Below the pieces are notes generated by a model. That model saw only the letters and a list, made by a program, of their open reading frames with translations. It searched no databases and was not told the origin of the DNA. From an uncultured Methylococcales bacterium (GTDB lineage: Bacteria; Pseudomonadota; Gammaproteobacteria; Methylococcales; Methylomonadaceae): DNA of 37,492 nucleotides. The stretch is taken from positions 1 through 37,492 of the forward strand of contig CAJVYL010000004.1 of the NCBI GenBank assembly GCA_913009265.1, given 5' to 3'. Each line of letters opens with the position of its first letter. Position 1 is the stretch's first letter. Positions 1 to 11,841 of this stretch are shown one piece after another. Made by a program: the position numbers and the translations under genes.

Positions 1-108
1 AGCTTAAAGAAAGTCGCTTCAGTACAAATGGAAAGCCCTGCAGGTATCTTTTCTAGAGGCCGTGTTAAATACATGACTCGTGGATTATCACCTGATGAAA
101 TGGAGTAA
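1..108 (+). CDS. C-terminal fragment, possible heme d1 beta-propeller protein (NirS/NirN/NirF-like)
   Basis: An open frame enters from the left edge and ends at a TAA at 106-108, leaving 35 residues. The segment SPAGIFSRGR resembles the last strand of the d1 propeller family; NirF in this same window ends with KPSGIFFSSRAHK at the equivalent place. It lies 4 bases before the next gene's start, so it is probably the preceding gene of the nir operon. In the Pseudomonas order this slot is nirS, but the classical NirS tail, as I recall it, is different, so NirN or another NirF-like paralogue is equally possible. The fragment is too short to settle the identity. Confidence 0.45.
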   Translation, partial: SLKKVASVQMESPAGIFSRGRVKYMTRGLSPDEME

Positions 109-112
109 GATT

Positions 113-412
113 ATGAAAATTTTACTTATTTCAATGGTTTTACTCAGTGTATCTACGGCTCAAGCGGCTAGTATTTATGCGGGTAAGGCAAAAGCAGCAG
201 CTGTTTGTTCACAATGTCATGGGGTTAGATCTACAAGTGCGGAAGCACCATTTCCTCCACTTGCTGGAAGGGATGAAGAGTATCTTGAAATGGCACTTAA
301 GCAATACCGTGATAAAACACGTATTTCAGATGTGATGAATAATATTGCAGGCTCATTAACTGATCGAGATATTAATAATATTGCTAATTATTATAGTCGT
401 TTAGGTAAATGA
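113..412 (+). CDS. Small periplasmic monoheme cytochrome c (NirM-like)
   Basis: This 99-residue protein starts with a signal peptide (MKILLISMVLLSVSTAQA) and carries one heme site, CSQCH at residues 32-36. The C-terminal half has the short-helix pattern of class I cytochromes of the c553/c4 type (LTDRDINNIANYYSRL). It would be an electron carrier in the periplasm, plausibly donating to nitrite reductase as NirM (c551) does in Pseudomonas. An upstream in-frame ATG at 80 is rejected: it would put hydrophilic residues before the signal peptide and overlap the previous gene, while the ATG at 113 has GGAG at 102-105. The stop overlaps nirC by ATGA, suggesting translational coupling. The heme protein call is firm; the NirM role is inferred from position. 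Confidence 0.85.
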   Translation: MKILLISMVLLSVSTAQAASIYAGKAKAAAVCSQCHGVRSTSAEAPFPPLAGRDEEYLEMALKQYRDKTRISDVMNNIAGSLTDRDINNIANYYSRLGK

Positions 413-717
413 GATATCTAATCATTGCACTGGCTTTTTCTGCCAGTGCAATGGCTGATAAAGCAATTGATTCCCCAAGTCTAGAAAGACAACAAGAATT
501 ACATAATATGCTTGCGCATGATTGTGGTTCTTGTCATGGATTAACCCTTAAAGGGGGCTTGGGACCATCTTTGTTACCCAAGGCTTTGGCTGGTAAATCT
601 GATCAGTTTCTTGTACATACCATTCTTGAAGGTAGAAAGGGTACGGCAATGCCACCTTGGAAACCTTTTATTACTGAACAAGAAGCCCTTTGGATAGTTC
701 AAAAATTACTAAAGTAG
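409..717 (+). CDS. nirC: Cytochrome c55X, NirC
   Basis: The gene encodes 102 residues with a short signal peptide (cleavage near residue 16), a heme-binding CGSCH at 39-43 and a probable axial Met in GTAMPPW. The stretch HDCGSCHGLTLKGGLGPSLL is typical of the cytochrome c55X (NirC) family, found in nir clusters and thought to serve heme d1 maturation or electron delivery to NirS. The start overlaps the stop of the previous cytochrome gene (ATGA). A long hairpin repeat follows directly, so distal operon expression either reads through it or restarts before nirF. Confidence 0.85.
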   Translation: MRYLIIALAFSASAMADKAIDSPSLERQQELHNMLAHDCGSCHGLTLKGGLGPSLLPKALAGKSDQFLVHTILEGRKGTAMPPWKPFITEQEALWIVQKLLK

Positions 718-722
718 AATAT

Positions 723-777
723 GGGGCGAAGGCTTTAGCCTTCAATTTATTATAATGAAGGCTAAAGCCTTCGCCCC
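723..777. repeat. Nested palindrome, family A copy 1
   Basis: Two perfectly complementary 22-base arms (723-744 and 756-777) flank an 11-base AT loop. Each arm begins or ends with GGGGCG/CGCCCC and contains its own palindrome, GAAGGC-TTTA-GCCTTC, so it can fold as one long hairpin or two small ones. It lies between nirC and nirF inside an otherwise tight operon. A closely related element is at 18081-18133 and a partial one at 9165-9201. It is probably a REP-type element; it may also attenuate transcription or stabilise the upstream mRNA. Confidence 0.85.
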
Positions 778-821
778 CACATAGTTTTCTAATCCAACCC
801 CCTCTCAATTTATATCAAAAT

Positions 822-1982
822 ATGTTCAAACTTAGTCTTTTATCACTCTTGTTTTGTCTTAATGCCCATGCTGAATTACGAGCAACAGGTGATTTAGGTG
901 TAGTTATTGAACGTGCAAAAGGTAGTGCTTTAATCATCAATACCAGCAAACAAAAGACTTTAGCCAAAATAGAAGCATTAGGTGATTTATCCCATGCTTC
1001 CGTGGTGTTTTCTCGTGACCAAAGATATGCATTTGTATTCGGTCGTGATGGTGGTTTAAGTAAAATTGATTTATTACAAGATAAAGTGGCTAAACGTATT
1101 ATTCAAGCAGGGAATAGTATTGGTGGTGCAATTTCTCAAGATGGTCAATTAATCGCAGTTTCAAATTACACACCTGGTGGCGTTAAAATATTCTCAGCTG
1201 AAACTTTGGAATTAATTGCTGATATTCCTGCCCAGTATGGTGATAATCAATTATCTAAAGTAGTAGGTTTGGTCGATGCACCAGGGCAGCGTTTTGTTTT
1301 TAGTTTATTTGATGCTAATGAGGTGTGGATTGTTGATGTAAAAAAACCAACTACTCCTGTTATTCAGAAATTTAAAAATATTGGTAAACAACCTTATGAT
1401 GCTTTATTAACACCTGATGGTCGTTATTATATTGCAGGCTTATTTGGTGAAAGAGGTTTGGCTTTATTAGATTTATGGAATCCAGAAACAGGTGTTAAAC
1501 GAATCTTGCCTGATTATGGCAAAGATGATGAAAAACTACCTGTTTATAAAATGCCTCATTTAGAAGGCTGGGCTGTTGCAGGTGACTTTATGTTAATACC
1601 AGCAATCGGTCAGCATGAAGTTTTAGTGATTGATACTAGGCAGTGGACTTTAGTTAAGCGCATACCTGTTATAGGCCAACCTGTCTTTGTAATGGCTAGA
1701 CCTGATGGACGGCAAATATGGGTGAACTTTGCCTTTCCTGATAATCAAAATTTACAAATTATAGATGCTAAAGATTTTAAAATCGTTAAATCTTTAATAC
1801 CTGGAAAAGCGGTGTTACATATGGAATTTACACCACGTGGTGAGCAAGTGTGGGTATCTGTACGTGATGATAACCAAGTCATTATTTATGACACAGAAAA
1901 CCATGCAGAGTTAAAGCGCTTATCGGCTGAAAAACCGAGTGGTATATTTTTTAGTTCGCGTGCCCATAAAACGGGTTTGTAA
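822..1982 (+). CDS. nirF: Heme d1 biosynthesis protein NirF
   Basis: The 386-residue product matches the NirF family in length and start-to-end pattern: a signal peptide (cleaved near residue 17), then WD-like blades of an eight-bladed propeller related to the d1 domain of cytochrome cd1, for example GAISQDGQLIAVSNYTPGGVKIF and the terminal KPSGIFFSSRAHKTGL. NirF is a periplasmic protein needed for a late step in heme d1 synthesis. No clear Shine-Dalgarno sequence precedes the ATG, but the signal peptide fixes the start. Two bases separate its stop from nirD. The upstream palindrome is the only sizeable spacer in the operon. Confidence 0.92.
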   Translation: MFKLSLLSLLFCLNAHAELRATGDLGVVIERAKGSALIINTSKQKTLAKIEALGDLSHASVVFSRDQRYAFVFGRDGGLSKIDLLQDKVAKRIIQAGNSIGGAISQDGQLIAVSNYTPGGVKIFSAETLELIADIPAQYGDNQLSKVVGLVDAPGQRFVFSLFDANEVWIVDVKKPTTPVIQKFKNIGKQPYDALLTPDGRYYIAGLFGERGLALLDLWNPETGVKRILPDYGKDDEKLPVYKMPHLEGWAVAGDFMLIPAIGQHEVLVIDTRQWTLVKRIPVIGQPVFVMARPDGRQIWVNFAFPDNQNLQIIDAKDFKIVKSLIPGKAVLHMEFTPRGEQVWVSVRDDNQVIIYDTENHAELKRLSAEKPSGIFFSSRAHKTGL

Positions 1983-1984
1983 TA

Positions 1985-2440
1985 ATGCTAAGTTCCTTGC
2001 ATAAGCAATTACTTAATGATTTCCAGCAAGATTTACCCTTATCAGCGACTCCATATCAGGATGTTGCAGATTCTTTAGGCGTTGCTGAAGATGAAGTTTT
2101 AGACGCTTTTAAAGAATTGCAGGATCAACAGTTTATTGCCCGTATTGGTTCTGTTATTGCGCCTAATTTAATTGGGACTAGTTCATTAGTCGCCATGTCT
2201 GTTCCAGAGAATCATCTTCAAAGTGTTGCTGAAATTATTAACCAATACCCTGAAGTTAATCATAACTATGAAAGAGATAATCGCTTTAATTTATGGTTTG
2301 TATTGGTTGCTAAAGACAGCGAGAGTTTACAACAAGTAATGGCTGATATGGAATTACAAACAGGTTATAAAATGTTGTATTTACCTTTATTGGCAGATTA
2401 CTTTATCAATTTAGGGTTTGAGTTAGATTTTGATGATTGA
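1985..2440 (+). CDS. nirD: Siroheme decarboxylase subunit NirD
   Basis: This 151-residue protein has the Lrp/AsnC-like fold of the NirDLGH proteins: an N-terminal winged helix (about 1-65) and a C-terminal RAM-like domain (about 70-150) with PEVNHNYERDNRFNLWFVL. Family knowledge: NirDLGH decarboxylates siroheme to 12,18-didecarboxysiroheme, the second stage of heme d1 synthesis, in the cytoplasm. It is closest in the window to NirG (both carry PEV-HNY and NLWFV/NMWFV motifs). The D/L/G/H assignment follows gene order and the pairwise resemblance of D to G and L to H. The stop overlaps nirL by 11 bases. Confidence 0.88.
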   Translation: MLSSLHKQLLNDFQQDLPLSATPYQDVADSLGVAEDEVLDAFKELQDQQFIARIGSVIAPNLIGTSSLVAMSVPENHLQSVAEIINQYPEVNHNYERDNRFNLWFVLVAKDSESLQQVMADMELQTGYKMLYLPLLADYFINLGFELDFDD

Positions 2441-2942
2441 TGGTGTTAGTCGACAGTTAATAGAACTGTTACAACAAGGTTTACCGCTGGTTTCGCGCCC
2501 TTATACTGAGATTGCTAAAAAACTTCATCTCACTGAAGATGAAGTACTTATACGGGTGGCTAAACTTAAACAGCAGGGTATTATTAAGCGTTTAGGGGTC
2601 GTAGTTAATCATAGGCGATTAGGTTATAAAGCCAATGCTATGGTGGTGTTTGATGTGCCTGATAGTTTAATCTCGCAAATCGGTGATCATGTCAGCCAAT
2701 TTAACTTTGTTAATTTGTGTTATCAGCGCCCAAGGCAGGGTGATCAATGGCCTTATAGCTTATATTGCATGATTCATGGTAAAAACAAAGAGACAGTTTT
2801 AAAGCAGTTAGATCATTTGATTGAGTCATGTGGATTGCAGCAGTTTAAACGCGAAGTATTGTTTAGCAAGCAATGTTTTAAGCAACGTGGCGCGCTTTAT
2901 CAAGCCTTAGAAAAACAACAAAAAGTTATAAGTAATGGATGA
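2430..2942 (+). CDS. nirL: Siroheme decarboxylase subunit NirL
   Basis: The 170-residue product is the partner type to NirD: a winged-helix N-terminus (LLQQGLPLVSRPYTEIAKKL) followed by a RAM-like half with GVVVNHRRLGYKANAM and the C-terminal KQCFKQRGALY. The motif (V/P)NH-RLGY is shared with NirH in this operon and marks the L/H subtype. It would form part of the NirDLGH siroheme decarboxylase. It overlaps nirD at its start and nirG at its end by 8 bases, consistent with coupled translation. In some bacteria NirD and NirL are fused; here they are separate genes in different frames. Confidence 0.87.
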   Translation: MMIDGVSRQLIELLQQGLPLVSRPYTEIAKKLHLTEDEVLIRVAKLKQQGIIKRLGVVVNHRRLGYKANAMVVFDVPDSLISQIGDHVSQFNFVNLCYQRPRQGDQWPYSLYCMIHGKNKETVLKQLDHLIESCGLQQFKREVLFSKQCFKQRGALYQALEKQQKVISNG

Positions 2943-3378
2943 AGTAGATAAACTAATCATTAATCACCTTCAAGGTGGTTTTCCTGTCTGTGACTCACCT
3001 TATCAAGTGGTTGCTGATCAATTAGGTTTAGCTGAAGCTGACTTAATTAATAGAATAAAGAATTTGTTAGATACAGGCTTACTCTCCCGTTTTGGTCCTT
3101 TATTTCATGCAGAACAAATGGGGGGCGCATTAACTTTAGCCGCTGTAAAAGCACCAGAACAGCAGTTTGATCAAATTGCTGAAATAATCAATTCCTTTCC
3201 TGAAGTTGCACATAATTATGCGCGTAATCATGAGCTTAATATGTGGTTTGTCATTGCAACTGATGTGCCTGAAAGGTTAACAGAAGTTATTAAGGAAATT
3301 GAACAGCAAACTAAATTAGCTGTTTATAACATGCCGAAAATAAATGAATATTTTGTTGGCTTAAAATTACAGGCATAA
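2935..3378 (+). CDS. nirG: Siroheme decarboxylase subunit NirG
   Basis: This 147-residue protein repeats the NirD architecture: DEVDKLIINHLQGGFPVCDSPY at the winged-helix start, then PEVAHNYARNHELNMWFVI and a short tail ending YFVGLKLQA. Its role is in the siroheme decarboxylation step together with NirD, NirL and NirH. It starts inside nirL and is followed by nirH after 2 bases. The D-L-G-H order matches Pseudomonas-type nir clusters; the labels depend on that synteny, since the subunits are paralogues. Confidence 0.87.
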   Translation: MDEVDKLIINHLQGGFPVCDSPYQVVADQLGLAEADLINRIKNLLDTGLLSRFGPLFHAEQMGGALTLAAVKAPEQQFDQIAEIINSFPEVAHNYARNHELNMWFVIATDVPERLTEVIKEIEQQTKLAVYNMPKINEYFVGLKLQA

Positions 3379-3380
3379 AC

Positions 3381-3863
3381 ATGGATGAATTAGACCGACA
3401 AATTATTACAGCCACTCAAGCAGGACTCCCCCTAGTACCTCAGCCTTATCAAGCAGTCGCTAATGAATTAGGTATCACAGCTGAATTATTGATGCAGCGC
3501 ATTAAATTAATGCAGCAACAACAAGTTATTCGGCGTATTGGTGTAGTGCCAAATCATTACCGTTTAGGATATAAATATAACGGTATGACTGTTTGGAATA
3601 TTGCTGATGAATATATAGATGATCTAGGTAAACAAGTGGGTGAGTTAGACTTTGTCAGCCATTGTTATCATCGTCCAAGGCATGAACCCGAATGGAATTA
3701 TAATTTGTTTGCTATGGTACACAGTAAAACAGAAGAAGGCGTAAACCAGAAAATACAAATCATTGTTGATTTACTAGGTGCATATAATTTAGGAAATGAT
3801 GTTTTATATAGTACTCGAATTTTGAAGAAAACAGGGTTAAGAATAGGAGCTAAGGGTGTTTAG
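3381..3863 (+). CDS. nirH: Siroheme decarboxylase subunit NirH
   Basis: The 160-residue product starts DELDRQIITATQAGLPLVPQPY and carries VVPNHYRLGYKYNGMTVW and the long HRPRHEPEWNYNLFAMVH segment, the L/H-type RAM half. It is the paralogue of NirL (CYQRPRQGDQWPYSLYCMIH at the equivalent site). It is expected to act in the NirDLGH complex. Its last 8 bases overlap the GTG start of nirJ, and its C-terminal codons supply the Shine-Dalgarno sequence of nirJ (TAGGAG at 3844-3849). Confidence 0.88.
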   Translation: MDELDRQIITATQAGLPLVPQPYQAVANELGITAELLMQRIKLMQQQQVIRRIGVVPNHYRLGYKYNGMTVWNIADEYIDDLGKQVGELDFVSHCYHRPRHEPEWNYNLFAMVHSKTEEGVNQKIQIIVDLLGAYNLGNDVLYSTRILKKTGLRIGAKGV

Positions 3864-4995
3864 ATTAAGTCAATATATGCGAGAAATTTTGCATCCAACG
3901 CCTTTAAAACCAGTAAGGAAACCTTCTGGCCCCGTTGTTATCTGGAACTTAATCAGACGCTGTAATTTAACCTGTAAACATTGCTATACCACTTCTGCAA
4001 ATGTAGATTTTCCTGGAGAATTAAGCACGCCTGAAATCTATCAGGTAATGGATAATTTAAAAGACTTTAAAGTCCCCGTGCTTATTTTATCTGGTGGAGA
4101 GCCTTTATTACATCCCGATATCTTTGATATTTCTCGACGTGCAAAAGATATGGGGTTTTATTTAGCACTATCTAGTAATGGCACACTTATTACTAAGGAA
4201 AATATTAAACAAATTGCAGAAATTAATTACCAATATGTGGGGGTAAGTCTTGATGGAATAGGGCAGACGCATGATAAATTTAGGCAAAAACAAGGTTCAT
4301 TTTCTGAATCTCTAGCAGGGATTGGCTTATGTCGTGATAACGGCATAAAGGCAGGTATTCGTTATACCTTAACTAAAGATAATGTACATGATTTTCCTGC
4401 CATGCTTAAGTTAATGGATGATGAAAATATAGATAAATTCTATTTATCACATTTAAACTATGGTGGAAGAGGCAATAAAAATCGTAAATCTGATGCTGAG
4501 TTTGCCATGACTCGTGATGTAATGGATCAGTTATTTGAACAATGTCTGCAATGGGAAAAGCAAGGCGCAGAAAGGGAAATTGTTACCGGTAATAATGATG
4601 CAGATGCCGTATATTTTTTACATTGGGTTAAGAAAAATTACCCAGATAAAGTTGAACATATTCAAGCAAAATTACAACAGTGGGGTGGAAATTCATCCGG
4701 TGTTAATGTGGCGAATATTGATAACTTAGGTAATGTACATCCAGATACCTTTTGGTGGAACCATAACCTAGGCAATGTAAAAACCAGAGATTTTTCTGAT
4801 ATTTGGCAAGATACATCAGATCCTCTTATGGCAGGATTAAAACAAAGTCCAAGACCATTAGAAGGACGATGTAAAACTTGTGCTTATCAACAAATATGTA
4901 ATGGAAATACCCGTGTAAGAGCTCATCAGCTATTTAATAACTCATGGGCTGAAGATCCTGGATGCTACCTTAAGTTGAGTGAAATAGTTGGTTAA
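3856..4995 (+). CDS. nirJ: Radical SAM heme d1 biosynthesis protein NirJ
   Basis: This is a 379-residue radical SAM enzyme with the 4Fe-4S/SAM motif C36-x3-C40-x2-C43 (CNLTCKHC), the GGE-like motif SGGEPLLHP and a cysteine-rich SPASM-type tail (CKTCAYQQIC and a later PGCYL). NirJ removes two propionate side chains from didecarboxysiroheme and installs the oxo groups' precursors on the way to heme d1. The start is GTG; it gives the family-typical opening with HPTP before the GPVVIWNL segment and has TAGGAG 6 bases upstream, so it is preferred over an ATG at 3877. nirE and a complete nirN are not found downstream, so those functions must lie elsewhere. Confidence 0.92.
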   Translation: MFRLSQYMREILHPTPLKPVRKPSGPVVIWNLIRRCNLTCKHCYTTSANVDFPGELSTPEIYQVMDNLKDFKVPVLILSGGEPLLHPDIFDISRRAKDMGFYLALSSNGTLITKENIKQIAEINYQYVGVSLDGIGQTHDKFRQKQGSFSESLAGIGLCRDNGIKAGIRYTLTKDNVHDFPAMLKLMDDENIDKFYLSHLNYGGRGNKNRKSDAEFAMTRDVMDQLFEQCLQWEKQGAEREIVTGNNDADAVYFLHWVKKNYPDKVEHIQAKLQQWGGNSSGVNVANIDNLGNVHPDTFWWNHNLGNVKTRDFSDIWQDTSDPLMAGLKQSPRPLEGRCKTCAYQQICNGNTRVRAHQLFNNSWAEDPGCYLKLSEIVG

Positions 4996-5119: not shown

Positions 5120-6433
5120 ATGAGGGTTTTTTATAAAGTTATATTTTTTGTTTTGTTATTTTTGTCGATTTCATTGGCAAAAGCAGATTCTTCTTTAAAC
5201 GAACAAGATATTCGACTAATAGTTAAAGAACTATTACAGGAAAAAGATTCAAAAATTCAATTATTAGAATCAAGAATACAACAATTAGAAGCCAAACTTC
5301 AAAACCAGAATGCTAGTGTAAATGTTGATAAGACAACAAGCGCAAATAAAGATCAAAAAACTATTGATAATAGTTTTAGCGACAAACTAGCAGAGATAGA
5401 ATCAGACGTTTCAGAATTAAAATCAACAGCAGCAGAAAATGGACTGGAAATTACTGGTTTTTTTGACTTTAGTGCAAGAACTGAAAATAGTGAAGAAAAT
5501 ACCTTTAGTCTGGGTGCTGTTGAGATAGACCTTGAATATGCTTATGGCGAACATTTTGCAGCCAGTTCGGCATTAGTGTGGGACGGTGACAGTGCCGAAA
5601 TAGGCGTAGCAGTTGTTGATTTCCATATGTTTGATGATGCTATCCCAGCAAGAGGACGTATTTTTTCTAGCCAAGGCTTTCATGTTCAAGCAGGTCGCTT
5701 CGATTTACCTTTTTCTACTGATTATCAATATTTTGCCGCACCCGATAGAATGACTGTTTCTGCACCTATGACTACTGAACGTATCCAGCAGGGAGGCTAT
5801 AACGGTGATGGTGTACGTTTTTATGGTAGTTGGAATATTGTTAATTATGCTGCATTTTGGACTAACTCTGTTTATGAAGATGAAGGAACCTCAGTAGGGG
5901 GACGTCTTGGTATCTCTTTGGGACAAAACAGTTACCAATTACATAATCAACATTCTAATGGCAATCTAGAAGTGGGGATATCTCACTTAACGGATCTTGA
6001 TGGTAGTGATAATGCCAGAAATAGTATTTATGCCGCTGATTTAACTTTCAATTATGGATTGCTTGCCTTACAAAGCGAATTGGCTTGGTTGGAATCTCAT
6101 GAAACATTATTTGATGCAAATGATGTTAATTTGGGGCGGCCTGATGAATTTTCATATCATGTAACACTGATTGCCGATTTAGCAACAGTTGTTCTATACC
6201 CTGTTAAAACTTATATTCGTTATGGGCAATGGAACCCAAGCCATTCACATATTGTTGATGGTGATGAGAGTTATGCGATTGAAGATATATCTCGTTTAAC
6301 GGTTGGTTTTAATTATACTATGAATGATTATTTACAAATCAAGTTTGAGTATTCAGATTCATTAGGGACTGAGACTGAAGAGTCAGACTTTGAAAAACAA
6401 TTAGGAACAGCTCAGTTAGTGGTGGCTTTTTAA
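5120..6433 (+). CDS. Outer-membrane porin with N-terminal coiled coil
   Basis: The 437-residue product has a signal peptide (cleaved after about residue 22, AKA-DSS), a heptad-rich coiled coil (about 30-65, LLESRIQQLEAKLQ), and then a long beta-barrel region of alternating hydrophobic and polar strands ending in the terminal Phe typical of outer-membrane barrels (AQLVVAF). The build resembles trimeric porins of the DcaP or phosphate-selective O/P type. The substrate cannot be read from sequence. It has a good Shine-Dalgarno (AAAGGAC before the ATG) and a 124-base upstream spacer that probably holds the promoter of the following four-gene cluster. The tetraheme cytochrome gene starts 7 bases after its stop. 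Confidence 0.82.
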   Translation: MRVFYKVIFFVLLFLSISLAKADSSLNEQDIRLIVKELLQEKDSKIQLLESRIQQLEAKLQNQNASVNVDKTTSANKDQKTIDNSFSDKLAEIESDVSELKSTAAENGLEITGFFDFSARTENSEENTFSLGAVEIDLEYAYGEHFAASSALVWDGDSAEIGVAVVDFHMFDDAIPARGRIFSSQGFHVQAGRFDLPFSTDYQYFAAPDRMTVSAPMTTERIQQGGYNGDGVRFYGSWNIVNYAAFWTNSVYEDEGTSVGGRLGISLGQNSYQLHNQHSNGNLEVGISHLTDLDGSDNARNSIYAADLTFNYGLLALQSELAWLESHETLFDANDVNLGRPDEFSYHVTLIADLATVVLYPVKTYIRYGQWNPSHSHIVDGDESYAIEDISRLTVGFNYTMNDYLQIKFEYSDSLGTETEESDFEKQLGTAQLVVAF

Positions 6434-6440
6434 AATAATT

Positions 6441-6941
6441 ATGAAAATACAAAGAAAATATTTTTACTTGCTTACACTTATAATCGGTTTTTTTTCCAAT
6501 AATATCTTTGCACAAGAAAACCCACATCAACTGGGTAACAATAATGATATCACTTGTATTAATTGTCATGTTCTTCAGCCTAATATTACAGAAGCCATTA
6601 ATACAAAAAATAACCATGTGGATTTAAATAAATTCAAAAAAGATGGTATTGAAATGTGTACAACGTGTCATTCGGAAGAAGAGGGGCATGTAGTCGGTGT
6701 GCCGTTAGATTTTTCTGTTCCTGCTGATTTGCCCTTGGGCTTAGATAAATCTGTATCATGTTTGACCTGTCATTATACGCATGGAAGTTTTGAAAGTGAC
6801 CGGCCGCAAGCCAGTTATAGCTTTATGGATAGTTTATTAAACTCCGAACGCTTACATAAAAGTTTTTTAATTCGCCGTAATAATGTCAACGGCGAATTAT
6901 GTTTAACTTGTCATAATACTAAACAGAGTAAACAACAATGA
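6441..6941 (+). CDS. Periplasmic tetraheme cytochrome c
   Basis: This 166-residue protein has a signal peptide (about 1-24) and four CxxCH heme sites at residues 39-43 (CINCH), 73-77 (CTTCH), 107-111 (CLTCH) and 154-158 (CLTCH). Extra histidines (H29, H59, H83, H114) could serve as distal ligands for bis-His hemes. It resembles the doubled-CxxCH class of small multiheme cytochromes, but I recognise no named member. There is no visible Shine-Dalgarno, so translation is probably coupled to the porin 7 bases upstream. Its stop overlaps the next gene by ATGA. The context (porin, HAMP protein, chemoreceptor) suggests a redox input to sensing rather than a terminal reductase; this is inference. Confidence 0.85.
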   Translation: MKIQRKYFYLLTLIIGFFSNNIFAQENPHQLGNNNDITCINCHVLQPNITEAINTKNNHVDLNKFKKDGIEMCTTCHSEEEGHVVGVPLDFSVPADLPLGLDKSVSCLTCHYTHGSFESDRPQASYSFMDSLLNSERLHKSFLIRRNNVNGELCLTCHNTKQSKQQ

Positions 6942-7513
6942 GTGACACAATAAAACCCAACAAAAGAAAAATAATTCTGATAGATAAGGCCTTTCAAGGT
7001 CGATTTATTGTTTCTGTTTTGGCGACCATTATTTTATTTGGTTTATGTTCTGCAGGTTTATTGTATTGGTTGATAAGTAGTGATTTAAACGTTCAATCAC
7101 AAGCAGCACATATTAATATTGCAAATACTTGGGAAAGGTTAGGCTTATCAATACTTCTTGGTAATATTGTTGCAGCGATTATTGCAGGCTTAACGGCAAT
7201 AATTGTGGTTCTTTATATATCGCATAAAATTGCAGGCCCCCTATATCGGTTTGAAACATTATGTAAAGAAGTAGGTGAGGGGAATTTAGATACCATTACC
7301 TATTTAAGAGAAGGTGATCAATTACAAGAACTAGCTCAATCTTTTTCAACAATGGTCGATAAGTTACGTGATAAACGTAAAAATAAGAATGAATTAGTTG
7401 CCGAAATTAATCAACAATTAGTAAGTTTAAAAAATAATGCTGAACTATCAATTGAACAGCAGGAATCAATTGAAAATATTGAATTGATTTTAAACAAAAT
7501 AAAGGAATCATAA
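6938..7513 (+). CDS. Small inner-membrane HAMP-domain protein without an output domain
   Basis: The 191-residue product has two membrane helices (about 23-45 and 69-97) enclosing a periplasmic loop of only about 25 residues, then a HAMP domain beginning [12 protein letters not shown] (about 98-150) and a charged coiled-coil tail of about 40 residues. There is no kinase, methyl-accepting or GGDEF domain. The loop is too small for a classic ligand pocket, so the signal may come from a partner, most simply the tetraheme cytochrome encoded just upstream with an ATGA overlap. The chemoreceptor gene follows after 5 bases. The function is unknown; a signal-relay subunit is a working guess. Confidence 0.75.
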
Positions 7514-7518
7514 AAATT

Positions 7519-9135
7519 ATGTTAAAAAATACATCTATTAAAACAGTTTTATTGACTATTTCTTTAATTCTTTTTGTTGCGAGTTCTTTTTTTGTTTTTA
7601 GGCTGTGGAATGGGTTTAATCAGATTGAGAGAGCAATATCCGAACAGAATAAAATTGAGCAATCAGTGATTGAATTACAACACGCTCGATTTCATGTCGT
7701 ACAAATTCAGCAGTTTCTCACTGATGTGGGGGCTACACGGATAAATGGTGGCTTTGAAGAGGCAAAAGGTAATATGGCTAGTGCTTTACAACGGCTTTCA
7801 ACTGTTGAAACAGTACGCCCTGAACTATCTAGTGACATTGAACAGGTTAAAGCTGGAATTGTAGCTATGCATCAGTCCGGCGTTACTATGGCTTGGGAGT
7901 ACATTAACAATGGTGTTGAAGCGGGTAATGCCATTATGACTGCCCCTGATACTGGCTTAGATGATACTGCAGAGCGTTTGGCAAAGCACCTTGATTTATT
8001 TTCTAAGCAGTTAAATACTGAATTAGAACAGTCGGACAAACAATTAGAAGGTTTGATTGCTAGTTCAAGTTTTATCAATATAACTTTAGCCCTTGTATTA
8101 ATGGTGTTCGTTATCGCGGGTTTATTGATGATTTATTTAAAAGTAGAACCCCCTTTAGTTGCATTAAAAAAATCCCTTGAAGATATAAATAGTGGTGGGG
8201 GCGATTTAACTCGTCGTATTCCTCACGAGGGTAATGATGAAATTGGTGAAATTATTATTAAATTTAATGATTTCTTATCATTAATACAAAGTTTAATGCA
8301 GTCTATTTTGATGGAAACTGATAACTTGGTATCCAGTTCAAACCGGTTAACAATAATGGCGCAGGATGCCAAAGAAGATATAGTGAAACAGCAGATTGGA
8401 ACTGATCAGGTTGCAACAACAGTTACGCAGTTATCGTCAACAGTACAAGAAGTAGCTATTAATACTAAGAATGCCTCAGAAACAGCCTCTCAGAGTAATT
8501 CTGAAACAGAAATTGGTAAAACAGTTGTCAATAATGCAGTTCAATCTATTTATACTTTATCAAGTGGAATTGATACGGCAAGCAGTGCTATATCAAAAGT
8601 AGAAGAGGATTGTAAAAATGTAAGTAGTGTACTTGATGTGATACAAAGTATTGCTGATCAAACTAATCTTTTAGCTTTAAATGCAGCAATTGAAGCGGCT
8701 AGAGCAGGTGAGCAAGGACGTGGTTTTGCAGTAGTTGCTGATGAAGTACGCACTTTAGCAAGTCGTACGCAAGATTCAACTCAAGAAATCCAATCTATGA
8801 TTGAAAATCTGCAACGAGGATCTAGAGACGCAGTAAAAGCAATGACGGATAGTGAGTCTCAGGCAAAAGAAACAGTTTCTGAAATTGAGTCTGCAGGTGG
8901 GGTTTTAGATAAAGTATCTAGTTTAGTCGGAAGTATTTCCGATATGAATACACAAATATCACATGCAGTTAACGAGCAACAGACAGTTGTCGAACATATA
9001 AATCAAAATGTTATAACAATTAATGATGTGACTAGGTCTTCAACAGAAGATACGGAAAAGACTGTGCAGGAAGCCTCTCAGCTACAAAGTATTGCGATGA
9101 ATCTGGAAGCTGCTATTTCTCAATTTAAAGTATAA
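7519..9135 (+). CDS. Methyl-accepting chemotaxis protein
   Basis: A 538-residue transmembrane chemoreceptor: TM1 about 9-28, a periplasmic all-helical sensor of about 150 residues (four-helix-bundle type), TM2 about 184-206, a HAMP domain about 208-262 and a cytoplasmic signalling hairpin. The hairpin tip is unmistakable ([20 protein letters not shown] at about 379-398, followed by [12 protein letters not shown]). It ends ISQFKV, with no C-terminal CheR/CheB docking pentapeptide. It would pass ligand or redox information to CheA/CheW, which are not encoded here. It is the last gene of the porin-cytochrome-HAMP cluster; repeats follow it. Confidence 0.93.
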
Positions 9136-9363: not shown

Positions 9364-11841
9364 ATGAAAAAAATCATCATTCAGTTTGTCTTACTACTGC
9401 TTTTACTTGGTACAGAAACTGCATTTTCAAACACACAATCATTAACTAATACTCATAACAAACAGCTAACTATAGGTGTTTTAGCTTTTCGGGCTAAAGA
9501 TATAACTGAAAAAAGGTGGCAATCGCTTGCAGAGCAGTTATCAACCGAAATATCTGGGTATCACTTTAGGATTATTCCTTTAAATTATTCTGAACTAGAA
9601 CAAGCTGTCATTGAAGAAACGATTGATTTTGTTTTAACCAATACAGCACATCATATTTTTTTACAGTCATTATTTCAGACTGTGCCATTAGCAACTTTAG
9701 AAAATTGGATTGACCAAAAAGCGGTTAGGCAATTTGGTGGGGTGATTTTTACTCTTGCAAAGAACAATGAGATTAATTCATTACAAGATTTAAAAAACAA
9801 AACCTTTGCTGCTGTAAAAAAAGGTTCATTAGGTGGATACCTTGCGGCTAAAGGAGAACTAATGAGCGCCGGCATTAATACTGAATCATTTTTTTCCAAA
9901 TTAACTTTTAGTGGAATGCCTCATGACCAAGTGGTTTTGATGGTTGCTAATGGAGAAGTTGAAGCGGGTACAGTTCGCGCAGGCGTGTTAGAAAGTATGG
10001 CTAAGTCAGGAAAAATTAACCTGAATGATTTTAAAATATTAAACGTAAAAACAAGTTCAGAGTATTTCCCTTATTTACACTCTACTGGGCTATATCCTGA
10101 ATGGCCCTTTTCTAAGCTCCACAATGTTGAGCTAGAAATAGCTAAACAAGTTAGCTTGGCTTTATTAAAACAGCCTCTTACGGTAACAACAACAGGCCAT
10201 TATTATAAATGGAATATTCCACTAGATTATAAACCGATAAATCAATTATTAAAGACATTAAAAATCAGGCCTTTTGATCATGAGACTGAATTTAATGTTG
10301 ATGATATTTATTTTAAGTATCAATATTTTATTAATGTATTGGTATTATTTATTTTAAGTGTTGCTTTATTTTATGGCATAAATTTACATAGATTAAATGG
10401 CTTGCTTAAACAGGCAAATATAAAAATAAAAATATCGAGTGAAGCCAAATATAAAAAACTAATTGAAAATCTACAAGTAGGCTATTTCTTTTACAGCCAT
10501 AATGTTAATGGTGTGTTTTTATATGTTAGTCCTTCAGTCTTTGATACTTTAGGTTATCAACCTGATGAGTTTCTAACGCATTGGGAAACATTTTTAACCA
10601 ATAACCCTATTAATAAAGATGCAGTAATAAAAACGGATCAAACACTAAAGGGTGAAAGTACTCCAGCTTATTACTTAGAGGTTTTTCATAAACAAGGACA
10701 TAAATGTACTTTGGAGGTTTCTGAAACAGCTGTTTTTGATGATTCTGGAAAAGTAATTGCTGTTGAAGGGATAGCGCATGATGTCACTGAACGGAAAGGT
10801 CTTGAAGATGAGTTAGAGAAAGAAAAGCAATTTTTAACGGCAGTGTTAGATAGTATTTCAGATACTATTATCGTTTGTGACAAAAATGGGGTATTGCAGC
10901 TCTTTAATCAGGCGGGGGTGGTACTGCATGGTGAAAAACATCAACCATTATTACCTTTGGATTGGAGTGATCATTACAACTTATATGAGGCAGATGGTAA
11001 GTCTAAATTAAAACTAGAAAATATTCCCCTATATAAGGCATTTACTCAAGGCTCTGTTAGTGAACAAGAGTTAATGATAAAGCCTAAAAACTCCCCTGCA
11101 GTATCAGTTATAGCCTCAGGCCGAGCGGTTATTGATAAAAAGGGGAATAAACTAGGAGCCGTTGTTTCTGTTCATGATATTACTGAAAGAAAAAAGAATT
11201 TAAAACAATTACAGAAATCCTTAAAAGAAAAGGAAATATTATTACGTGAAGTCCATCATCGCGTAAAAAATAATATGCAAGTTATTACCAGTTTATTATC
11301 ATTACAAATTCGTAAAAGTAGTGATGAGGTTGTAAAACAAGCTTTAGCTGAAGCACAGCATAGAGTAAAAGCCATGGCATCAGTTCATGAGTTACTTTAT
11401 CGCTCAAATGATCTGGCACAAATTGAAGCGAAAAAATTAATCAACAATATTTGTACAGATTTATTTAGGCTGTATCAAGAACAAGCAACACGTATTACTT
11501 TAAATATTGAGGTGGATGAGATTACTTTAGATTTAGATAAAGCTGTTCCTTTTGGCTTAATTCTTAATGAATTATTGAGCAACGCGCTTAAATATGCCTT
11601 TCCTGATCAAAACAAAGGTATCATCACCATTCAATTAACAGCAGATAATGATCAATACTTTCAGTTTGTGTTAAGCGATAACGGAGTTGGTATACCTAGT
11701 GAATATACAAATGAAAGCAGTAATAGCTTAGGGATGAAGTTAATTATGGCATTAAGTGATCAATTAAATGCTGAAGCAAAATTTGATGATAAACAAGAAG
11801 GGACTTGTTTTATTTTAACGTGTCGGTGTGTTCAGTCATAA
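9364..11841 (+). CDS. Membrane histidine kinase with PhnD-type periplasmic domain and two PAS domains
   Basis: An 825-residue sensor kinase. The order is: signal peptide (1-22); a periplasmic binding domain of the PhnD/phosphonate-like type (about 34-285, LTIGVLAFRAKDITEKRW and later FGGVIFTLAKNN); one membrane helix (about 322-342); two PAS domains (about 360-480 and 485-620); a HisKA_2 dimerisation domain with phospho-His in EVHHRVKNNMQVI (about 630); and an ATPase domain with N-box NELLSNALKYAF and SDNGVGIP. PhnD-like domains also occur in sensors such as TtrS, so the ligand need not be a phosphonate. The likely partner is the REC-PAS-GGDEF regulator encoded downstream past a kinase relic. 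No clear Shine-Dalgarno is visible. Confidence 0.88.
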   Translation: MKKIIIQFVLLLLLLGTETAFSNTQSLTNTHNKQLTIGVLAFRAKDITEKRWQSLAEQLSTEISGYHFRIIPLNYSELEQAVIEETIDFVLTNTAHHIFLQSLFQTVPLATLENWIDQKAVRQFGGVIFTLAKNNEINSLQDLKNKTFAAVKKGSLGGYLAAKGELMSAGINTESFFSKLTFSGMPHDQVVLMVANGEVEAGTVRAGVLESMAKSGKINLNDFKILNVKTSSEYFPYLHSTGLYPEWPFSKLHNVELEIAKQVSLALLKQPLTVTTTGHYYKWNIPLDYKPINQLLKTLKIRPFDHETEFNVDDIYFKYQYFINVLVLFILSVALFYGINLHRLNGLLKQANIKIKISSEAKYKKLIENLQVGYFFYSHNVNGVFLYVSPSVFDTLGYQPDEFLTHWETFLTNNPINKDAVIKTDQTLKGESTPAYYLEVFHKQGHKCTLEVSETAVFDDSGKVIAVEGIAHDVTERKGLEDELEKEKQFLTAVLDSISDTIIVCDKNGVLQLFNQAGVVLHGEKHQPLLPLDWSDHYNLYEADGKSKLKLENIPLYKAFTQGSVSEQELMIKPKNSPAVSVIASGRAVIDKKGNKLGAVVSVHDITERKKNLKQLQKSLKEKEILLREVHHRVKNNMQVITSLLSLQIRKSSDEVVKQALAEAQHRVKAMASVHELLYRSNDLAQIEAKKLINNICTDLFRLYQEQATRITLNIEVDEITLDLDKAVPFGLILNELLSNALKYAFPDQNKGIITIQLTADNDQYFQFVLSDNGVGIPSEYTNESSNSLGMKLIMALSDQLNAEAKFDDKQEGTCFILTCRCVQS

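Follow-up and report, generated by a model that had tools for sequence, protein, structure and literature searches.

The question raised by the present locus is why a chemoreceptor gene should stand in line with genes for an outer-membrane protein, a multiheme cytochrome and a small membrane protein. The locus occupies positions 5120-9135 of contig CAJVYL010000004.1 (assembly GCA_913009265.1) of an uncultured Methylococcales bacterium of the family Methylomonadaceae, and it was analyzed within a stretch of 37,492 nucleotides, hereafter referred to as the window. Calling of open reading frames (ORFs) in the window gave four genes on the + strand with successive spacing of 7, -4 and 5 bases, the same positions as in the original prediction made from this sequence. 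These encode a porin-like outer-membrane protein of 437 amino acids (aa; 5120..6433), a presumed periplasmic tetraheme c-type cytochrome of 166 aa (6441..6941), a HAMP-only inner-membrane protein of 191 aa (6938..7513) and a methyl-accepting chemotaxis protein (MCP) of 538 aa (7519..9135). The original prediction had joined the four into a possible redox-taxis module, an interpretation that is partly supported by the present analysis. What is established concerns the order of the genes, their conservation and their domains: the first three genes form a real but rare unit in the sampled genomes, mostly of the window's family, and the linkage between the tetraheme and HAMP-only genes is not due to chance. 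Judged from sequence, the chances are evenly balanced that this trio would act as an envelope-spanning input module, for redox or for a ligand, serving the chemosensory machinery.

The domain content of the cytochrome and the receptor agreed with their earlier description as a four-heme protein and a full chemoreceptor. The 166-aa protein carries four CXXCH motifs, at residues 39-43, 73-77, 107-111 and 154-158 (6555..6569, 6657..6671, 6759..6773 and 6900..6914, respectively, all on the + strand), and matched Paired_CXXCH_1 (PF09699) with 41.5 bits against a cut-off of 20.6, which places it among the doubled-CXXCH cytochromes. Its signal peptide was judged by eye, and zero segments rose above the hydrophobicity threshold. 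The protein falls outside the NapC/NirT family (Cytochrom_NNT, 12.3 bits vs. a cut-off of 24.1, and no N-terminal membrane anchor over the threshold) and outside the MtrA-type decahemes (four CXXCH motifs; DmsE-type decaheme model, 30.2 bits vs. a cut-off of 192.2). A known function unrelated to sensing had been named beforehand as a refutation; no described function for this tetraheme was found in the literature searched, which mostly excluded subscription papers, and this neither contradicts nor supports a sensing role. The 538-aa protein is an MCP, as shown by matches to MCPsignal (155.4 bits; signalling domain at 8476..9033 on the + strand) and HAMP (27.6 bits), with hydrophobic segments at residues 9-27 and 188-206. 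No Pfam model matched its N-terminal sensor region above the cut-off.

The other two labels are less firm. The membrane character of the 191-aa protein is indicated by two hydrophobic segments (residues 24-42 and 77-95), whereas its match to HAMP (PF00672; residues 94-145, 7217..7372 on the + strand) stayed just under the curated cut-off (22.3 bits vs. 25; E = 1.7e-4). Its layout consists of the two hydrophobic segments, a short presumed periplasmic loop between them, the HAMP domain and a tail of ~45 residues, and an output domain is absent. The profile of its family gave weak matches to HAMP-bearing structures (best E = 9e-4), including Tsr-type chains and the sensory rhodopsin II transducer HtrII, which has two membrane helices and a HAMP domain (both at E ~1e-3). 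HtrII continues into an MCP signalling domain, unlike the window protein, which ends within its short tail. The outer-membrane channel is the weakest of the four labels. The 437-aa protein was termed porin-like, with a presumed beta-barrel, because of its hydrophobic N-terminus (residues 3-21), a coiled-coil-like stretch (seen by eye and in weak coiled-coil matches) and an aromatic residue conserved at its C-terminus (F in 21 and Y in 1 of the 22 relatives listed). It matched no porin family in Pfam or NCBIfam and no PDB sequence, and an MtrB/PioB-type barrel was likewise without a match in these collections.

The conservation of the gene set was evaluated by searching the HAMP-only protein against 151 genomes of the window's family. 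At E = 2.3e-35 or better, the search returned 25 close loci, spread over 24 genomes; the other matches were generic HAMP domains and a distant group within genus g13. A tetraheme profile run on a family sample of 151 genomes returned the identical 24 genomes and 25 copies, and the two genes lay side by side in 25/25 copies, in agreement with the co-occurrence that the original prediction had proposed to check. Genome G146 was left out of the counts, as it holds only the tail of the HAMP gene at a contig start (L122). All four CXXCH motifs were retained in 22 of the 23 tetraheme relatives labelled by BLAST. The porin-tetraheme-HAMP trio was found in the same order and on the same strand at 22 of the 24 other family loci, or 23 of 25 with the window included, counting L042 and L058, where the porin is split into two ORFs. 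Two loci deviated, namely L060, with a truncated tetraheme and an unlabelled porin, and L064, cut by the contig end. Junctions within the trio ranged from -64 to +18 bases, bar two (-208 and +213) that stem from split porins or from start sites set by the longest ORF. Beyond the family, the tetraheme profile at a threshold of E = 1e-8 matched 2 of 368 other genomes of the class sample and 0 of 298 other genomes of the phylum sample. Both outside loci (L080 and L081) have the full trio, which is thus intact at 25 of 27 loci overall; homologous clusters whose genes are not kept together, the other outcome set down in advance as a refutation, were mostly not encountered.

The tie of the trio to chemosensory genes was assessed next to the frequency of such genes. 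The 24 trio genomes contain 381 MCP-domain matches, amounting to ~0.4% of genes on an estimate of one gene per 1.05 kb. In 19 of the 24 family loci that could be assessed, the next gene downstream encodes a receptor, and 8 of the 10 genera have at least one such locus; L047 could not be assessed, as its contig stops 162 bases past the HAMP gene, and 3 of the 19 receptors are incomplete owing to a contig end (L045, L061) or a masked stretch (L049). The binomial chance of such an arrangement is ~9e-42 by loci and ~3e-18 by genera, figures that are good to an order of magnitude only because the loci are not independent. Chemosensory genes were located at most ~7 kb from the trio or HAMP locus in 26 of the 27 loci. 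On one strand, L048 carries cheA, a 151-aa gene, MCP, cheW, MCP, trio and MCP in this order, and L051 carries cheA, MCP, cheW, MCP, cheW and trio. An MCP and a GGDEF-EAL-like gene are upstream of the trio at L065, an MCP is within 2 kb at L064, and an MCP is upstream of the porin at L047. Of the two loci outside the family, L081 is preceded by a GGDEF-EAL-like gene, and a divergent sensor-type MCP lies ~3 kb from its porin gene; L080 has a sensor-type MCP directly upstream. The latter receptor (L080:2901-4949) carries a C-terminal hemerythrin domain, a hint of oxygen sensing. The uncounted fragment L122 shows the HAMP tail, a sensor-type MCP, and cheD and cheR on the opposite strand. L060:6926-9206 is a second, broken trio copy in one genome, with a transposase-like gene nearby (by eye) and with cheR and cheD still following the HAMP gene on the same strand. 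CheW domains are present in the window's own genome, two of them within CheA-sized ORFs.

The conserved unit is the trio and not a strict set of four genes. The module envisaged by the original prediction is kept as regards the trio and its proximity to chemosensory genes, while the receptor partner changes: the partners range from the 538-aa receptor and larger receptors with the same sensor to other receptors in CheA/CheW runs, CheR/CheD and GGDEF-EAL-like genes.

Among the 19 receptors directly downstream of family trios, 18 have one common sensor domain. Seventeen of these were recognized by the motif Q-x-Q-Q-F/W-L-T-D, and that of L063, one residue off, was recognized by alignment and profile. 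In the window receptor, the motif Q-x-Q-Q-F-L-T-D-x-x-A-T, common to most trio-adjacent receptors, spans residues 62-73 (7702..7737, + strand). The rest of the adjacent receptors varies, comprising 538-aa HAMP-MCP forms or longer forms, two of which (L043 and L044) were scanned and have PAS and HAMP domains. Among the other MCPs of the 24 trio genomes, 23 of ~362 carry this sensor domain vs. 18 of 19 adjacent ones (Fisher p ~1e-18), a comparison biased in favor of the latter since the profile was seeded from trio-linked receptors. The 43 profile matches in these genomes were counted as 41 genes, two genes having matched in two pieces each, and the ~362 is approximate because the 381 MCP matches probably miss three of the 18 adjacent receptors, whose genes are cut or masked. 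A heme-bearing receptor was considered and rejected, as the translation of the 538-aa receptor contains no CXXCH.

How the trio might feed such receptors can be outlined from these genes. The porin would admit a small redox-active solute, i.e., an electron acceptor, a donor or a ligand like nitric oxide (NO), to the periplasm, where the solute would oxidise, reduce or bind the tetraheme. The altered tetraheme would dock on the short loop of the HAMP-only protein and/or on the sensor domain of the receptor. The HAMP-only protein would transmit the change through the membrane, probably via HAMP-HAMP or coiled-coil contact with the receptor, and the receptor or the CheA/CheW array would respond with a shift in CheA activity, leading to steering (or a change in cyclic di-GMP, c-di-GMP) by the redox state of the surroundings. 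The redox state of the cytochrome as the signal, and the porin as the entry of an electron acceptor, both put forward in the original prediction, would thereby have their place as conjectures drawn from the gene content.

The gene set was not found described in the literature searched by titles and abstract openings, in line with the earlier remark that no such system was known. In the papers compared here, redox- and energy-taxis receptors have a single cofactor, housed either by the receptor itself or by a partner protein (PMC13401364, PMC8396549). CetA/CetB of Campylobacter jejuni and CetA2/CetB2 of Magnetospirillum gryphiswaldense pair a redox sensor of PAS-FAD (flavin adenine dinucleotide) type, located at the membrane, with a separate membrane transducer (PMC12442639, PMC13401364). 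Similar to CetA/CetB, the candidate redox part and the membrane signalling part would reside on separate proteins at the present locus, an analogy drawn from genes alone. Unlike CetA/CetB, the candidate sensor is a tetraheme, extra HAMP-only and porin-like proteins are present, and PAS matches numbered 0 in the four window proteins (Pfam scan). The split-sensor logic thus appears to resemble CetA/CetB, except that a multiheme cytochrome would do the sensing and a HAMP-only protein the relaying. In DcrA of Desulfovibrio and GSU0582/GSU0935 of Geobacter, a c-type heme within the receptor's periplasmic domain feeds the MCP through HAMP (PMC8396549), and the heme-Cache family carries c-type heme in extracytoplasmic sensor domains (PMC12889525). 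A periplasmic c-type heme (presumed periplasmic in the window) beside a HAMP-MCP is common to DcrA, GSU0582/GSU0935 and the window, although DcrA and GSU0582/GSU0935 hold one heme in their own sensor domain and the four heme motifs of the window are on a separate protein. Other links between chemosensory proteins and electron flow include Geobacter EsnABCD, associated with electrode growth, whose MCP lacks a periplasmic domain and has its GAF in the cytoplasm (PMC5585712), and Shewanella mutants without CymA, MtrBC/OmcA or an MCP, which showed no congregation around minerals (PMC5789149). A survey of Gallionellaceae gives multiheme and MCP genes, and not this set, in the portion available (PMC10734462).

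Several observations weigh against an input module of this kind and bear on two alternatives. The first alternative is that the trio is a neighbour without a functional tie to chemotaxis, kept in place by gene-block inheritance. Ten of the 25 family loci, including the broken copy, come from one genus, g11, and loci of the same genus are not independent; protein distances within the set are highly correlated (mirror-tree, 17 loci, masked L049 left out), a correlation not counted as evidence because common descent predicts it as well. L053, a 7.4-kb contig, is without any chemosensory gene. Such inheritance alone would have to accommodate receptors of different kinds directly downstream of the trio in 8 of 10 genera, as well as the chemosensory genes that lie near it in two other families, and is already difficult to defend and hardly probable. 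The second alternative is chemotaxis toward a non-redox solute, which the porin would bring to the sensor domain of the receptor while the cytochrome and the HAMP-only protein tune the receptor, e.g., as a redox gate. The sensor domain is indeed the part of the receptor that most often travels with the trio, and it also occurs apart from it: it was found in 44 of the 151 family genomes, 23 of which are outside the 24 trio genomes. Among 14 selected contexts of sensor receptors without the trio, 13 had no multiheme gene and one was the contig-edge trio fragment L122, so that the receptor can exist without the cytochrome. The trios of L048, L051 and L065, in turn, adjoin receptors without the sensor motif. 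This weighs against the input module and also against solute chemotaxis, as the trio is then not tied to one ligand-binding domain, and chemotaxis of this type is considered very unlikely. Two further points concern the signalling step itself. As the HAMP-only protein has no output domain, the last step needs contact with a partner, and the gene neighbourhood could reflect co-regulation alone.

The main rival to the input module is an electron-transfer or detoxification module, in which the porin would admit an oxidant, the tetraheme would reduce it or shuttle electrons, and the HAMP-only protein would be an anchor or assembly factor; the receptor would be merely co-located, the cell swimming toward the same substrate. 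Doubled-CXXCH proteins are commonly electron carriers. A porin together with a multiheme cytochrome is the usual grammar of conduits, and a porin-cytochrome cluster is reported from Methylobacter, within the Methylococcales, whose barrel is of the MtrB/PioB type and whose cytochrome is a decaheme of the MtrA type (PMC13322032). The window resembles the MtrAB/MtoAB/PioAB conduits in the adjacency of genes for an outer-membrane barrel, here presumed, and a multiheme cytochrome, and it differs from MtrAB-type conduits in having four heme motifs and a 437-aa protein without a porin-family match. Against this rival, no second CXXCH protein was present near the 24 other family trios, though reductases were not searched for. 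HAMP domains of characterized proteins relay signals, and the CheR, CheD, CheA and CheW neighbours are signalling machinery beyond a receptor alone. A further argument against it is that the HAMP-only/multiheme pair recurs among other genes, in one case with kinases. Taken together, this rival is possible and still on the unlikely side.

That recurrence was seen when the HAMP-only profile was searched more widely. It matched 4 further genomes of 340 in the class sample and 23 others of 299 in the phylum sample, many of the latter matches being HAMP domains of long proteins. Fourteen contexts were examined: the 4, nine of the 23 (chosen mostly for their short open frames) and one from the family of G319. 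In 4 of the 14 (L133:6023-7949, L139:1029-2929, L165:1173-3109 and L166:2866-4949), the HAMP-only gene directly precedes genes for a seven-heme cytochrome and for another small membrane protein; L139 is not independent of L133, having been found with L133's own protein. The heptaheme cytochrome of L133, the one scanned, matched Paired_CXXCH_1 of Pfam. Alignment of the heptaheme and tetraheme profiles gave an hhalign probability of 98.6 (E = 1e-15, 96 columns), to which the common CXXCH motifs contribute. Propeller genes lie near the pair in L133 and L165; on the same strand, L133 also encodes an NtrC-type regulator and two kinases, one of them a PAS histidine kinase. Neither a porin-like gene nor an MCP was recognised at the four loci, and the remaining 10 contexts showed no multiheme cytochrome on the stretches examined, some of which are short. 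The heptaheme set thus shares with the window a HAMP-only gene adjoining a doubled-CXXCH multiheme cytochrome; it differs in its seven heme motifs, second small membrane protein, propeller genes and kinases. It is possibly a second split redox sensor. Small as this sample is, the reappearance of the pair among other genes, in one locus with kinases, favors sensing over a role in respiration alone.

The conserved histidines may hint at where contact could take place. Across 20 tetraheme sequences, the invariant histidines outside CXXCH are H29, H83 and H114, with no others, and Met72 and Lys140 are likewise invariant. As just three such histidines are invariant, one of the four hemes is left without an invariant second histidine. 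The HAMP-only protein of the window has two histidines, His58 in the presumed periplasmic loop (codon 7109..7111, + strand) and His96 just past the second hydrophobic segment (codon 7223..7225, + strand), and both are invariant in 27/27 trio-type (clade-1) sequences. The L060 protein retains His58 despite its truncated neighbouring cytochrome. In the distant clade of genus g13 (clade 2), the His58 column holds Tyr in 10/11 and a gap in 1/11, and the His96 column holds Asn in 11/11; this clade (L066-L076) has no adjacent multiheme cytochrome, and the neighbours of L068 resemble sugar-nucleotide and glycosyltransferase genes by eye. His58 as a general trait of cytochrome-linked HAMP-only proteins was rejected, since 0 of the 4 heptaheme-linked ones keep it; the L133 protein has a His two columns away, and the other three are without a loop His. 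Conservation of His58 is confined to the tetraheme clade, where it may go back to one ancestral event. The two histidines are a starting point in the search for a ligand or docking contact, and they are not evidence of one.

A bolder extension of the input module can be framed on this basis, in which a HAMP-only protein with a doubled-CXXCH multiheme cytochrome would be a general split redox receptor with swappable outputs, a His58-type axial-ligand switch included. The form with tetraheme and porin would act on chemotaxis, perhaps on c-di-GMP, in methanotrophs, and the heptaheme form on a kinase/NtrC-type pathway elsewhere. Given three invariant non-CXXCH histidines for four hemes and an invariant loop His58, the HAMP-only protein may supply, or compete for, the axial ligand of one heme, and heme oxidation or binding of NO or O2 may flip the HAMP switch. 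As a whole, this extension is a long shot.

The surroundings of the four genes were compared in the same manner. Upstream of the porin gene, at 80-4995, lie two small c-type cytochromes, a nirF-like gene, four nirD/L/G/H-like regulators and nirJ, i.e., a heme d1 set in which NirJ was confirmed by family match and the remaining members were assigned by eye. Together with methanopterin-type genes recognized by eye, the heme d1 genes would suit a gammaproteobacterial methanotroph. The window's nir protein labels were absent within 7 kb of the HAMP gene at the 24 other trio loci, for which reason the nir genes look unlike a part of the module; they were also absent from the 11 distant-clade loci of g13. 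Several of the contigs compared are short. Downstream, at 9364-11841, a histidine kinase is fused at its front to a binding domain of phosphonate type (PhnD-like; Pfam) and is followed by a GGDEF gene and a GGDEF-EAL gene (the latter by eye). This kinase was set aside as a part of the module in the same way, its label being absent within 7 kb at the 24 other trio loci. Origin from a mobile element was also rejected, the tetraheme having no plasmid match and the HAMP-only protein no phage match. Elsewhere, a HAMP-only protein of another type is directly followed by a pilin-like gene (L134:7388-8502, by eye), with a hint of the same in L136; by eye, HAMP-only proteins thus have quite different partners. 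At L164:3546-6293, a HAMP-only gene lies directly behind fliQ/fliR/flhB-like flagellar export genes (by eye).

A cultivable strain with the block may well exist, as the block is present in 24 of the 151 family genomes. If the input module is real, a receptor would take its input from three separate proteins, one a multiheme cytochrome, one a HAMP-only relay and one located in the outer membrane, and HAMP-only proteins would gain a function. Periplasmic electron flow would itself become a steering cue, and this would offer a concrete answer to how low-oxygen methanotrophs position themselves between oxygen and methane.

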